DNA of 44,823 nt from a virus: positions 1 through 44,823 of the IMG/VR virus record IMGVR_UViG_3300033388_004910. One strand, given 5' to 3'. Shown here one piece after another: positions 56-44,820 of the stretch. The notes under the pieces were generated by a model. It searched no databases and was not told the origin of the DNA. It was given only the letters and a program-made list of their open reading frames with translations. How positions within the stretch are numbered: the first letter of the stretch is position 1; each line of letters begins with the position of its first letter. The translations under genes and the position numbers were made by a program.

Positions 56-64
56 TGCTATAAT
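56..64 (+). promoter_or_regulatory. Extended -10 promoter candidate
   Basis: The sequence TGCTATAAT combines a perfect -10 hexamer (59-64) with the upstream TGn extension. No good -35 box lies 16-18 bases upstream; the TTGACC at 12-17 is too far away. A start near base 71 would give a transcript of about 75 bases ending at the hairpin at 118-144 unless termination is prevented. Confidence 0.5.
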
Positions 65-147: not shown

Positions 148-228
148 TTCTTCCAGGAGTGCTATACTGATTTCAGTTTATATGAATATTGGCCAGCTCT
201 CCGGAGAGGGTCTTTTTTTTGGAACGAA

Positions 229-9650: not shown

Positions 9651-10502
9651 ATGGCGAAAAATAATTATTTCATCGTGAACAGAAGTATTGTTAAACATTG
9701 GGTTTGGGATGATAAACCATTTAGCAAAGGTCAAGCTTGGATCGATATGATCAGGATGGCAAACAGCCAGGATAAAAAAATCCCTTACAAAGGTGAATTA
9801 GTTGTTGTCAAAAGAGGTTCTTTCATCACTTCTTTAGCCAAGTTATCAGAGAAGTGGGGTTGGTCGATCAACAAAACCCGCCTGTTTATCACACATTTAA
9901 AAAATGACGAAATGTTGGTATCGATAAAGGTATCGATAAAGGATAATAAAAAGCACCGGTACATCCTTACTAACTACGAGGATTTCCAGTTTTCACCACA
10001 TGATAAAGGTATCGATAAAGGTATCGATAAAGGTATGGGTAAAGGTATGGGTAAAGGACATAAACAAATAAGTATTAAAGAAGAAGAATTAAATAAGATA
10101 TCTTTGTCAGAAGTTATAAATTTGTGGAATGAAATCATGGGTAAAAAGGTGCGAGTTACCGATGGCCGTAGGGAAAAGTTCAATACACGCATCAAAGAAT
10201 GGAAAGATCTTGCTACTATCAAAAAAATATTAGATAAAATCAAAGCTTCCTCCTTCTGCATGGGAAAGACAGGATGGAAAGCTGATATAGATTGGTTACT
10301 GGATAATGATACCAACTGGGTGAAAGTAATCGAGGGTAAATACGATGATCAGGAAGAAAGCAAAAGAACACCCCAAGAGAACGAAGATATCAAAACCGCA
10401 TATAGATGTGCCGGAAGGAACCCTGGATGTACAAAAGGAGAAGAACGAGTGTGTAAAGTATGCCCGAATAAAATTGCAAGAAAGGAGCGAATGAAATTAT
10501 GA
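9651..10502 (+). CDS. Replication initiator-like protein (winged-helix, DnaD-like)
   Basis: The N-terminus (NYFIVNRSIVKHWVWDDKPF...AWIDMIRMAN...RGSFITSLAKLSEKWGWSINKTRLFITHL) matches the winged-helix domain of phage replication/replisome-organiser proteins, which bind the phage origin and recruit helicase loading functions. The middle is a repeated Lys-Gly linker (KGIDKGIDKGMGKG), encoded by 12-bp DNA repeats. A C-terminal helical domain (about 145-230) resembles the conserved C-terminal part of such proteins. The last 50 residues carry C-x5-C and C-x2-C, a possible zinc site. No separate helicase or loader is seen nearby. The ATG follows a weak AGGATAGAGG. Confidence 0.8.
   Translation: MAKNNYFIVNRSIVKHWVWDDKPFSKGQAWIDMIRMANSQDKKIPYKGELVVVKRGSFITSLAKLSEKWGWSINKTRLFITHLKNDEMLVSIKVSIKDNKKHRYILTNYEDFQFSPHDKGIDKGIDKGMGKGMGKGHKQISIKEEELNKISLSEVINLWNEIMGKKVRVTDGRREKFNTRIKEWKDLATIKKILDKIKASSFCMGKTGWKADIDWLLDNDTNWVKVIEGKYDDQEESKRTPQENEDIKTAYRCAGRNPGCTKGEERVCKVCPNKIARKERMKL
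9917..10055. repeat. 12-bp iterons inside the initiator gene, probable origin
   Basis: GGTATCGATAAA occurs at 9917-9928, 9929-9940, 10008-10019 and 10020-10031, and the variant GGTATGGGTAAA at 10032-10043 and 10044-10055. A partial copy follows 9940. Each core contains the palindrome ATCGAT or its variant. A markedly A-rich stretch (10056-10110) follows. Iterons plus an A+T-rich segment within the initiator gene is the layout of the lambda origin inside gene O; the role here is inferred from that analogy. Confidence 0.65.
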
Positions 10503-15082: not shown

Positions 15083-15403
15083 TTGCCGATATACGATACT
15101 GACCAAGAGAGTATCCTCATTCAAAAGCATTCAGACGAGTTTGAAAAGATAAAAACTGCCCAGTCTACTGCCATCCTCTCAATCCTGGATAATTATTTAT
15201 CTGATGACGAGAGGATGGTAATCAAACTCATCCGTACCGAAAATAGTTACAGGCAAACAGCAGTTATTCTCGGAAAAACAAAAGGATCTGTCAGGCGCAT
15301 TTACAAGCGGGGCGAGAGAAAGCTCACAAAAATATCAAAGCTATTTGTCACCCTTGCAGATCTGATGAGCGTACCAGAAACGAAACGGATCGATTCTTTA
15401 TAG
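15083..15403 (+). CDS. Sigma region 4-like transcription regulator (106 aa)
   Basis: A TTG start follows GCGGAGGAGCA. Residues 40-92 (LSDDERMVIKLIRTENSYRQTAVILGKTKGSVRRIYKRGERKL) read as a helix-turn-helix of the sigma-70 region 4 type. Phage late activators of the ArpU/RinA group have a similar size, fold and position just before HNH and terminase. It probably turns on the packaging and structural genes, though the target promoter is not visible. Confidence 0.75.
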   Translation: MPIYDTDQESILIQKHSDEFEKIKTAQSTAILSILDNYLSDDERMVIKLIRTENSYRQTAVILGKTKGSVRRIYKRGERKLTKISKLFVTLADLMSVPETKRIDSL

Positions 15404-42249: not shown

Positions 42250-42271
42250 GTCTCTCCTGGAGAAAATAAAA

Positions 42272-42343
42272 AACTTGGCGCAGCTTTGGTTTTGGAAAAA
42301 AAAACTTGGCGTATTCCTGGTTTCTGAGAAAAAAAACTTGGCG
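42272..42343. repeat. Triple direct repeat A-tract plus CTTGGCG
   Basis: AACTTGGCG preceded by an A-tract ends at 42280, 42311 and 42343, so the period is 31-32 bases, about three helical turns. It lies in the non-coding gap between the two convergent operons and beyond the terminator. Three phased copies suggest a bound protein or a terminase/attachment site. A reading frame across it has no ribosome binding site. Confidence 0.6.
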
Positions 42344-42377
42344 CAATATCACTTCCTGGAAAATGGAATGAACAAAA

Positions 42378-42422: not shown

Positions 42423-42593
42423 TCACTTCTTTTTCAGTATCTCCTTAAGGGCCTTTGCATCACTCGGAGTGAGAATATATTTGTCCCGGCCATCAACCAA
42501 GATGATAGGAGATATCCCAGCTTTCACGCAAGCAGCCATTAACTGCTGACTGTTGAAACCTTTGAAATGTCCGAACGAATAGAGCTTTTTCAT
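42423..42593 (-). CDS. Hypothetical protein (56 aa)
   Basis: I chose the ATG at 42593 (MKKLYSFGHF), preceded by AAGGAGA and overlapping the stop of its upstream neighbour; upstream codons in the same frame lie inside that gene. The product is mixed and small, ending in KALKEILKKK. It is the last gene of the leftward operon. Function unknown. Confidence 0.6.
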   Translation of the reverse strand: MKKLYSFGHFKGFNSQQLMAACVKAGISPIILVDGRDKYILTPSDAKALKEILKKK

Positions 42594-42847
42594 GGTGTTT
42601 TTTTCTCCTTTAAAAATGATTTTGCATATTCTGCTAATTGCTGTTGAGCCCACTTTTTGCAATCTTCTTCTGTTGCATCACGCTCTTTGAAATAATGAAT
42701 AGTTGGAATATAGAACTTGCAAACATATACTCCGTGCCTGTTAAATATTTCTGCTACAACTCTTCCATTTATATATCCAACATGAACATACTTGAATTTC
42801 CATTCAATCTCTTTGATAATTGTTTCACCTACTTTTACATAACCCAT
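42590..42847 (-). CDS. Hypothetical protein (85 aa)
   Basis: The ATG overlaps its upstream neighbour by 13 bases. The N-terminus is beta-rich (GYVKVGETIIKEIEWKFKYV) and the end is helical and charged. Function unknown. Confidence 0.6.
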   Translation of the reverse strand: MGYVKVGETIIKEIEWKFKYVHVGYINGRVVAEIFNRHGVYVCKFYIPTIHYFKERDATEEDCKKWAQQQLAEYAKSFLKEKKTP

Positions 42848-43029
42848 GATTCAAATTCCTCCTTCAGATAGTAGAGTTTGATACCGTCTCTGTTTTCTCT
42901 GTCTGTATATTTCCTGTAAAGCTGCCGGGCGTAGTCTACAGAAATACCCAACCGAATTGCAGCCATTTCAGGACAAACAAGCCCTTTAGAAGTCCTCAAT
43001 ATTTCAATCAATCTTTCATATTTCTTCAT
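42835..43029 (-). CDS. Helix-turn-helix-like DNA-binding protein (64 aa)
   Basis: I chose the ATG at 43029 (MKKYERLIEILRTSKGLVCPEMAAIRLGISVDYARQLYRKY), overlapping the upstream gene. The sequence from about residues 18 to 40 (CPEMAAIRLGISVDYARQLYRKY) fits a helix-turn-helix. A small regulator is likely, but its target is unknown. Confidence 0.55.
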   Translation of the reverse strand: MKKYERLIEILRTSKGLVCPEMAAIRLGISVDYARQLYRKYTDRENRDGIKLYYLKEEFESWVM

Positions 43030-43142
43030 AGGCAAACCCCTGTAAACCAGGACTGGAATGTTTCCCACAACCAGAATATAAGCAAAGCCATTCCAATAAT
43101 GCCTAGAATGAAGATTTCAACAACATCAAGCAATCTATCCAT
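43026..43142 (-). CDS. Small membrane protein (38 aa)
   Basis: The ATG follows GAGGAGGAATAAA and the stop overlaps the next ATG (ATGA). A hydrophobic segment (about residues 9-27, VEIFILGIIGMALLIFW) gives one membrane helix. Function unknown. Confidence 0.6.
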   Translation of the reverse strand: MDRLLDVVEIFILGIIGMALLIFWLWETFQSWFTGVCL

Positions 43143-43143
43143 T

Positions 43144-43221
43144 TTATTCCTCCTCAGCGTATTCTGAGATTTCTTCCCAAATTCCTGCTAAGCCAATTAT
43201 GAATATAAAGCTCAGTAACAT
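43144..43221 (-). CDS. Tiny membrane protein (25 aa)
   Basis: The ATG overlaps the stop of the upstream gene. The 25-residue product is hydrophobic for 14 residues with an acidic tail, and the DNA of the tail supplies the ribosome binding site of the next gene. Coupling supports it but the size makes it tentative. Confidence 0.4.
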   Translation of the reverse strand: MLLSFIFIIGLAGIWEEISEYAEEE

Positions 43222-43427
43222 AATTCACCATCCCACCGCATGTCATCAATCAAGCAATCCACATATTCAGCAATTTTACTTGGCAATACTGGGAGTTTAC
43301 TATTGTCAATCCTGCAACATATGAATTCAACAGCCTCAGGAGTCAATCTTTTTGATTCCAAGTAAATAACAGCCTGATTCAGGTTTCTCCTTTCTGATTT
43401 GTCTTTAAGTTCTTTCCATGTTTTCAT
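43212..43427 (-). CDS. Hypothetical protein (71 aa)
   Basis: The ATG overlaps the previous gene's stop. A helical, charged product with two adjacent Cys near residue 37. No motif recognised. Lies in the leftward operon. Confidence 0.6.
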   Translation of the reverse strand: MKTWKELKDKSERRNLNQAVIYLESKRLTPEAVEFICCRIDNSKLPVLPSKIAEYVDCLIDDMRWDGELCY

Positions 43428-43684
43428 GATTCTATTGCCTCCTGATTGATTCTAATTATTAAGTTGTCATTGAATTTAATAGCCTTGCCTTTTTCGGCAT
43501 AAAAGATCTTTGTTGCAGTAATATGGTCGAGTCTATCCCTGAGAAGTTTGTTATTAATGAATATGCTCCATTCAGGCCATATGTGGCCAAAACTCTTGGA
43601 AGGGGTATATCTGATTCTGACAACCTTTTTCTCAGCCTCATAGTTAATTGCCTTTTTGTAATCAACAACTTCAACACTTTTCAT
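43424..43684 (-). CDS. Hypothetical protein (86 aa)
   Basis: The ATG overlaps the previous gene (ATGA) with GAGGAGGAAG upstream. A mixed alpha/beta, basic protein of no known family. Confidence 0.6.
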   Translation of the reverse strand: MKSVEVVDYKKAINYEAEKKVVRIRYTPSKSFGHIWPEWSIFINNKLLRDRLDHITATKIFYAEKGKAIKFNDNLIIRINQEAIES

Positions 43685-43854
43685 GATTTTTCTTCCTCCT
43701 CAATGTGAAGATAAACTTTGTTATCAGACGCTTGTTTGTATATCCGATCAATCTGATATTGCTCATAGCAATCACCAAATTCACAATGACATACAATGTC
43801 AGCCTCTGGTATTTCTAATTCATTGAGCCTTTCAATCAGTTCTTTTACTTTCAT
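43681..43854 (-). CDS. Small acidic protein (57 aa)
   Basis: ATG and stop overlap the neighbours by four bases. A CHCEFGDC segment (residues 22-29) hints at a metal site. The last 10 residues are very acidic. The frame is continuous with good coupling. Function unknown. Confidence 0.6.
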   Translation of the reverse strand: MKVKELIERLNELEIPEADIVCHCEFGDCYEQYQIDRIYKQASDNKVYLHIEEEEKS

Positions 43855-44009
43855 GCCGTCACCTCGTCCTTGTATTTTTTGATAGTATCGATACTGGGAT
43901 ATTCGTTGCCTACATACTGTTCGATCCCTGAGTCAGTCTGTAGATAATAATCGTTGTAATCACGTTGTACATAGATGCCGTAATAATCCGTTTTGTGCGC
44001 GCTGGTCAT
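43851..44009 (-). CDS. Small Tyr-rich protein (52 aa)
   Basis: The ATG overlaps the stop of the upstream gene, with GAGGTGACGGT before it. The 52 residues contain nine Tyr, with DYYGIYV and DYNDYYLQ segments that look beta-stranded. Function unknown. Confidence 0.55.
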   Translation of the reverse strand: MTSAHKTDYYGIYVQRDYNDYYLQTDSGIEQYVGNEYPSIDTIKKYKDEVTA

Positions 44010-44176
44010 ACCGTCACCTCTTTAGGGCACCATGTTGCGCGGTCTGGGTTGTTCTCACCAAGCCACAAATCATCTCTTTGATAAGTGGTTCTAAATTGCT
44101 CTGTTGTCTGCTGCTGTGGTACTGGTTGGTTATAACTCCTGGTTCTACCATGACAAATCATGAGTGGATACAACAT
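44006..44176 (-). CDS. Hypothetical protein (56 aa)
   Basis: ATG preceded by AAGGAGGTTATTA and overlapped by one base with the upstream stop. Gln/Thr-rich middle, two Trp near the C-terminus, no known motif. Confidence 0.55.
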   Translation of the reverse strand: MLYPLMICHGRTRSYNQPVPQQQTTEQFRTTYQRDDLWLGENNPDRATWCPKEVTV

Positions 44177-44283
44177 TAATAACCTCCTTGGCCGTCAACA
44201 AACGCATTAATAAAGAGCTGTACTGAGAAGAGAGTACCCACAGCCATCACTGCAGCCTGGCCTAATAATGAGAGTTCTATCAT
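44176..44283 (-). CDS. Small membrane protein (35 aa), first of the leftward operon
   Basis: ATG preceded by CAGGAGGAATACC and a promoter 50 bases away. Most of residues 4-29 are hydrophobic, so one membrane helix. Function unknown. Confidence 0.6.
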   Translation of the reverse strand: MIELSLLGQAAVMAVGTLFSVQLFINAFVDGQGGY

Positions 44284-44331
44284 GGTATTCCTCCTGTTCG
44301 GGCGGTGCCCGGTTTATATTCACCTATATTC

Positions 44332-44360
44332 ATTATATCGACAACATCAAGGTATTACAA
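44332..44360 (-). promoter_or_regulatory. Sigma70-type promoter of the leftward operon
   Basis: On the - strand the -35 is TTGTAA (44360-44355) and the -10 is TATAAT (44337-44332), with an ideal spacer of 17 bases. A transcript starting near 44325 would reach the first ribosome binding site in about 30 bases, passing through a short CGGGC/GCCCG stem. Confidence 0.75.
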
Positions 44361-44365
44361 TAGAT

Positions 44366-44383
44366 TTATCATGGTAATGATAA
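44366..44383. promoter_or_regulatory. Inverted repeat TTATCAT/ATGATAA, operator candidate
   Basis: TTATCAT (44366-44372) and ATGATAA (44377-44383) are exact inverted copies with a four-base spacer, placed just upstream of the leftward -35. The position fits activator or repressor binding. Confidence 0.5.
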
Positions 44384-44431
44384 TTGAACCACCATCCACA
44401 GCTAAACAGTAAGATATAAAAGCTTTTATTC

Positions 44432-44690
44432 CTGAGTGATACCCTTGGACATTAAACATAAACTTCCAAGTATTTTACTATTATATTTTCCTATCGTTTC
44501 ACTTGGGAACAATTCGAATTATTCCGGAGTGAATGACTAGGAAATATATCCGAGCAATCAACTCGGCAACGGTCTGTTTTATTCCAAGTCCTGAACTCGG
44601 ATATCTATCCTATCAATTGACTAGGCATTTCCGTACGATTCTCCTACTCCTGAACTAGGGAAACTATCCTATCGGATTGCTGGGAAAAGC
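44432..44690. repeat. Degenerate 59-bp tandem repeat array
   Basis: Units at 44432-44490, 44491-44550, 44551-44609 and 44610-44668, plus a partial unit after 44669, are 59-60 bases long. Each holds two ACT-[ACT]-[GC]GG-type cores: C at 44502, 44537, 44562, 44596, 44621, 44655 and 44680, so alternating gaps of about 35/34 and 25. Most units end in TATC and resume with CTATC. The regular phasing points to a protein-binding array: origin, partition, packaging or immunity site are all possible. Confidence 0.75.
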
Positions 44691-44800
44691 CTGTTTCTGG
44701 GGCTTTTGGGAATCTCAGAGGCTGAAGCCCTTGAAAACAGAGGGGTGCAGGGATTCAGGCCCGGGGGGGTCGCAATCTCTAACAAAAGAGGAGCCTAGAC

Positions 44801-44820
44801 AGATCGGAAGAGCACACGTC
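44801..44820 (+). other. Illumina adapter match at the contig end
   Basis: The 20 bases AGATCGGAAGAGCACACGTC are identical to the start of the common Illumina TruSeq read 1 adapter. The final three bases differ from its continuation. This is not phage sequence and shows where the assembly ends. Confidence 0.93.

Follow-up and report, generated by a model that had tools for sequence, protein, structure and literature searches.

Arrays of dyad sites are, in general, already known. The operators of phage lambda are short dyad sites set in tandem, ~23-25 bp apart. The cI-cro region of phi11 holds three 15-bp operators (PMC3991615), and F parS is composed of twelve 43-bp tandem repeats with ten 16-bp inverted repeats (PMC6238139). 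Phage SPP1 has two replication origins ~13 kb apart, one of which lies within the initiator gene (PMC6316719). Stoperators of cluster A mycobacteriophages are many copies of a single phage regulator site (PMC9283540). Here, we describe an array of near-palindromic sites at alternating spacing in a siphophage contig. The array is a real element and, as no described element with its site and spacing was found, an undescribed one.

The window, meaning the whole stretch of DNA analyzed, is the entire linear IMG/VR record IMGVR_UViG_3300033388_004910, with a length of 44,823 bases. It encodes siphophage genes for a DNA methyltransferase, RecE-like exonuclease, RecT, DnaD/O-like initiator, HNH, TerS, and TerL (the HNH-TerS-TerL terminase region spanning 15.7-20.7 kb), and further for portal, protease, capsid, tape measure, and tail fiber J, as well as a sigma-like protein (15083-15403). 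Genes run rightward up to ~42.2 kb, followed by a leftward operon of small ORFs (42423-44283) and then non-coding DNA (44284-44800) containing the array, while bases 1-595 are without a convincing gene. Were the contig ends to meet, the gene order would read lysis and fiber genes, convergent terminators, leftward operon, array, and then rightward early genes, and the array would fall within a divergent control region of ~1.2 kb. Siphophage control regions usually sit at such a place in the gene order. Region 1-220, with an extended -10 sequence and terminator-like hairpins, is a possible candidate for an early rightward promoter with attenuation.

The contig tail, 44801-44823, reads AGATCGGAAGAGCACACGTC, which is Illumina TruSeq adapter; unrelated phage records also end in sequence matching these bases, which are foreign to the phage DNA. 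With the adapter confined to bases from 44801 and no sign of artifact in the array itself, we rejected the array as a product of assembly. No terminal repeat was found in the contig. Runs of seven G occur just twice, one near the left end (32-38) and one near the right (44763-44769), and the distance to the true end is 31 nt in both cases. Between the convergent gene clusters, at 42265-42358, we also observed three 31-32-bp direct repeats with the core AAAAAACTTGGCG. These adjoin a strong terminator-like hairpin and have ACTTGG, the right arm of an array site, without the left arm.

We then examined the periodicity and composition of the array. Autocorrelation over 44431-44684 was 0.51 at lag 59 and 0.43 at lag 118, and the lag-59 z was 7.6; among 2000 dinucleotide shuffles, no best lag exceeded 4.7. 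No other 254-bp segment of the 44.8-kb contig had as strong a periodicity. The 59-bp repeat proposed in the first-pass annotation is confirmed. Tandem Repeats Finder did not report the array, even at score 30, because the spacers have diverged, and the period is upheld by autocorrelation instead. The repeated object is a 17-bp imperfect palindrome, CCnA(g/t)y-N5-ACTnGG, in seven strong copies (44490-44684) and two weak ones (44432 and 44466). Relative to the first pass, the weak pair is an addition to the seven strong sites, and the ACTAGG "half-site" turns out to be the right arm of the palindrome, as the left arms (CCnA) are conserved too. Symmetry is imperfect, with the right arm kept better than the left. 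Steps between the nine successive sites are 34, 24, 35, 25, 34, 25, 34, and 25 bp; the spacing of 35, 25, 34, 25, 34, and 25 noted in the first pass was correct for the seven strong sites.

Table 1. Coordinates of the array sites and neighboring features (positions are those of the window).
Feature	Coordinates	Strand	Basis and remarks
Extended -10 sequence, TGCTATAAT	56-64		Seen by eye
Terminator-like hairpins	123-140 and 196-211		3' of the extended -10 sequence
Rest of leftward operon, ~eight small overlapping or abutting ORFs	42423-44176	-	ORF list
Possible helix-turn-helix protein, 64 aa, candidate binder	42835-43029	-	
First ORF of leftward operon, 35 aa, hydrophobic, MIELSLLGQAAVMAVGTLFSVQLFINAFVDGQGGY	44176-44283	-	Read from sequence
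Promoter-like, TTGTAA-17-TATAAT	44332-44360	-	Consensus scan; leftward operon
Weak site 1, CTGAGTGATACCCTTGG	44432-44448		Step 34 to next; 9 better-scoring positions elsewhere in contig
Weak site 2, CCAAGTATTTTACTATT	44466-44482		Degenerate in the right arm but with a good left arm; keeps the register, step 24 to next; 32 better-scoring positions elsewhere
Promoter-like, TTCCCA-18-TATAAT	44480-44509	-	Consensus scan only; inside array
Site 3, CCTATCGTTTCACTTGG	44490-44506		Matrix scan and leave-one-out
Site 4, CGGAGTGAATGACTAGG	44525-44541		Matrix scan and leave-one-out
Site 5, CCGAGCAATCAACTCGG	44550-44566		Matrix scan and leave-one-out
Site 6, CCAAGTCCTGAACTCGG	44584-44600		Highest symmetry, 7/9 pairs
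Site 7, CCTATCAATTGACTAGG	44609-44625		Matrix scan and leave-one-out
Site 8, CCTACTCCTGAACTAGG	44643-44659		Matrix scan and leave-one-out; within 32-nt direct repeat D1
Site 9, CCTATCGGATTGCTGGG	44668-44684		Matrix scan and leave-one-out; no in-register site after

Using a symmetric 17-bp matrix, seven sites scored above 14 bits, all of them in the array, with the next positions in the contig at 13.2 and 12.8. Each strong site was recovered by a leave-one-out matrix, and at most two positions in the other 44.5 kb (0-2 per site) scored better. Columns 1, 4, 13, 14, 16, and 17 are invariant among the seven strong sites, and columns 2 and 12 nearly so. When sets of nine 17-mers were drawn 200,000 times from the genome background, none had as much arm pairing as the nine sites taken together. 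The weak sites extend the register leftward and are not distinctive on score alone. The array is intergenic, lying upstream of the leftward operon, and its last site is separated from the contig end by 116 bp. Its longest ORF is 41 codons, which bears out the earlier description of the array as non-coding. Examining the array as an RNA element yielded no Rfam family and no tRNA. Its single-strand fold was better than shuffles (z -2.7), as expected from the palindromes alone, and a hairpin reading was rejected.

Comparison of the repeat units shows where conservation lies. Core columns were 92% identical between 42-bp unit segments, compared with 45% for other columns, while identity in the 17-bp spacers was 27-35%, near random, and no step has changed in length by more than one base. 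On these grounds, both the sites and the distances between them look maintained; with so few units to compare, the case for selection on sites and spacing is strong but falls short of formal proof. The 32 nt at 44583 and at 44642 are 81% alike. We infer that a 59-bp unit with two sites was duplicated to build the array. What can be seen directly in the DNA is the set of sites with its spacing, cores and distances that are conserved while the spacers have drifted, and the intergenic position.

We also considered how the sites are arranged around the helix. With 10.5 bp to the helical turn, the 25-bp step amounts to 2.4 turns and the 34-bp step to 3.2, placing the site centers at 0, 86, 189, 309, 86, 171, 309, 34, and 171 degrees. 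Successive sites are rotated by ~140 and ~90 degrees, so that, for all their constant spacing, they follow a winding path around the helix. Helical phasing on a single face, previously read into the regular spacing, is ruled out by these computed angles. The longer step exceeds the shorter by 9-11 bp, about one turn, and a bound protein may therefore face its neighbors at much the same angle whether they are near or far. In a new kind of nucleoprotein scaffold, a dimeric protein would coat the nine sites in a spiral dictated by the alternating 25/34-bp steps, and the array would serve not as a plain operator but as a centromere, as a second replication origin, or to initiate packaging; we consider this unlikely.

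Our favored reading, which we put forward tentatively and stop short of calling probable, is a multi-site operator to which a dimeric phage regulator would bind cooperatively. The phage would encode this DNA-binding protein, and the near-palindromic form of each 17-bp site suggests that it is probably a dimer. It would load onto seven to nine sites, and contacts between adjacent dimers, spanning the fixed 25- and 34-bp steps, would make the filling of the array cooperative. Upstream of the leftward operon, the filled array would then form a single nucleoprotein body that would repress or switch the leftward promoters; the rightward early promoter expected across the contig joint might be regulated too. 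In this scheme, protein binding, the dimer state, cooperativity, and the direction of regulation are what we infer. Several features count toward an operator: a period and sites far above chance, the lack of any ORF exceeding 41 codons, a leftward promoter-like sequence downstream, a place in the gene order that, if the contig ends meet, is usual for siphophage control regions, and a 25-bp step that, by analogy, is close to lambda-type operator spacing. After duplication, sequence also appears to have survived only at positions that a protein would read, and the distances have likewise been preserved. Counting against an operator, most sites lie away from predicted promoters, the two steps put neighboring sites on different helix faces, and the array was seen in no related phage searched.

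The promoter predictions are themselves weak, the consensus scan having found 4 where 1.7 were expected in shuffles. One promoter-like sequence, within the array, is covered by site 3 and touches site 2. The main one, that of the leftward operon, lies 72 bp beyond site 1 and is followed downstream by an RBS-like AGGAGG and an ORF; the 35-aa ORF has its strong RBS-like AGGAGG before the ATG and a TAATG overlap with the next ORF. The first-pass annotation had suggested a multi-protein assembly site upstream of the leftward promoter, and the near-palindromes, conserved spacing, diverged spacers, and promoter-like sequence at 44360-44332 are consistent with this, the assembly itself being part of the proposed mechanism.

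Next, we looked for a protein that could own the array. No six-frame match to an HTH_3 (CI/Cro-like) repressor was obtained at E <= 1 from this contig, which may be incomplete at its ends, and neither ribbon-helix-helix nor integrase families were detected on it. The usual owner of such operators is thus missing or lies in the unassembled gap, which counts against a plain immunity operator. When leftward-operon ORFs were compared with PHROGs, no match was better than E 0.003. The 64-aa protein at 42835-43029 had been put forward as a binder. Its PDB matches are helix-turn-helix/homeodomain-like, in keeping with that proposal, but all have E > 0.6 (best 0.63), the helical AlphaFold model has a pLDDT of 60, and there is no Pfam match; these data hint only faintly that it may be a helix-turn-helix binder of the array. 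Its sole match in a protein scan was a false positive. The many sites, and the failure to identify an owner for them on the contig, could also describe a sink that, in infected cells, binds and titrates a DNA-binding protein of the host. Nothing positive favors such a sink, however, and titration needs no strict alternating spacing, leaving this the most doubtful of the explanations, with very little chance of being correct.

A partition site of a plasmid-like phage, akin to sopC/parS and loaded with a ParB-like protein, would have an architecture near that of the array, as F parS likewise has tandem repeats with inverted-repeat sites. However, ParA (AAA_31, PF13614), the ParB N-terminal domain (PF02195), and ribbon-helix-helix proteins were all absent from the contig, in scans that detected the positive controls. 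A ParA/ParB pair could be hidden in the gap at the contig joint. We judge a centromere very unlikely.

AT-rich DNA (~44320-44540, GC 0.27-0.33) borders the array on the left and extends beneath its first sites, raising the alternative of a second replication origin in which initiator sites stand beside an AT-rich stretch, as in SPP1 oriR. Such a stretch beside sites is a feature of origins, though promoters are expected to show the same. Within the DnaD/O-like replication gene (9651-10502), at 9917-10055, we observed 12-bp iterons, GGTATCGATAAA, in four exact and two diverged copies, and these likely form a replication origin of the SPP1/lambda kind. A replication-initiation gene with internal iterons is the layout of the first origin in SPP1, the initiator is ~32% identical to Bacillus phage replisome organizers, and, should the contig ends meet, the array would lie ~10 kb from the iterons on the far side of the joint. 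Against this, the iteron is absent from the array at <=2 mismatches, the array motif has no good match within the initiator gene, and an SPP1-kind origin has direct repeats, which differ from alternately spaced near-palindromes. On balance, a second origin seems unlikely.

The position of the array near the right contig end suggests another possibility, in which the array forms part of a packaging site bound by the small terminase, with the cut at or near that end (44800). The contig stops 116 bp past the last site and runs straight into adapter, as is possible at a physical DNA end, so the adapter at 44801 is a hint of a DNA end near the array. No real-looking gene is cut at either contig end, and the G7 runs are found only at their matched 31-nt distance from each end. 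Yet adapter is present at one end only, terminal repeats are absent, and adapter read-through is seen at ordinary assembly ends too. In most phages of such type, cos adjoins the HNH-TerS-TerL genes, which here are far from the array. A packaging role is accordingly quite unlikely. Among the four functions offered in the first pass, the operator is the one that we favor, with origin, partition, and packaging weakened by genes elsewhere on the contig.

To place the array among related phages, we searched for the element in other records. The closest TerL relatives are 39-45% identical, capsid relatives in phage records are at <=36% identity, and the initiator's resemblance to Bacillus phage proteins is the ~32% given above. 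Protein scans with the leftward-operon genes tried and with the RecT-like and initiator genes gave nothing useful. The array was absent from 50 viral records with related TerL, which held just three isolated one-mismatch motif pairs, and its motif was found in none of 21 genomes with related TerL. The strong 25-130-bp periods listed for large parts of 17 related-TerL records were all multiples of 3, as expected for coding repeats. Against IMG/VR, a three-site pattern gave 0 matches, and four relaxed CTNGG motifs at 25/34/25 spacing gave 21, close to the number that we estimate by chance, with none combining motif, spacing, and period. A literature search for a 59-bp phage repeat found no paper. 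The earlier statement that no named element has this layout accords with the IMG/VR pattern scans, which gave no relative. As such distant relatives are not expected to share a control region, absence from the searched records neither supports nor refutes any function. Separately, an unrelated, GC-rich record, IMGVR_UViG_3300031451_000166, carries ~four palindromes of the TGCCnAGTnGGCA type at 25/34/25 spacing at 2340-2500, between two divergent genes whose products are ribbon-helix-helix-like by eye. The record was picked by its spacing pattern, so the match may be chance, but its layout is that of an operator region.

Collectively, these data define a DNA element by its boundaries, its site, and its spacing; the phage lineage that carries it is without a close relative in the collections searched. 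Assigning its function could also assign one leftward-operon gene, and if it is not an operator, it would represent an undescribed way of organizing an origin, centromere, or packaging start. Compared with known systems, the array resembles lambda OR/OL and phi11 in having regularly spaced, short dyad sites in tandem, beside or, if the contig ends meet, between divergent units, but it has seven to nine sites rather than three and two alternating steps, on a contig without a detected repressor or integrase gene. With F parS/sopC, it shares tandem units that each hold inverted-repeat protein sites, those here being predicted. Its unit is 59 bp with two sites, however, whereas that of F is 43 bp with one, and the array is far more diverged and its contig lacks ParA and ParB. 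Like SPP1 oriR, it has (predicted) protein sites beside AT-rich DNA, ~10 kb from the likely first origin if the contig ends meet, versus 13 kb in SPP1, though its sites are near-palindromic, unlike the iterons in this phage's own initiator gene. Finally, stoperators are asymmetric and dispersed over the genome, whereas the sites of the array are near-palindromic and clustered in 253 bp.
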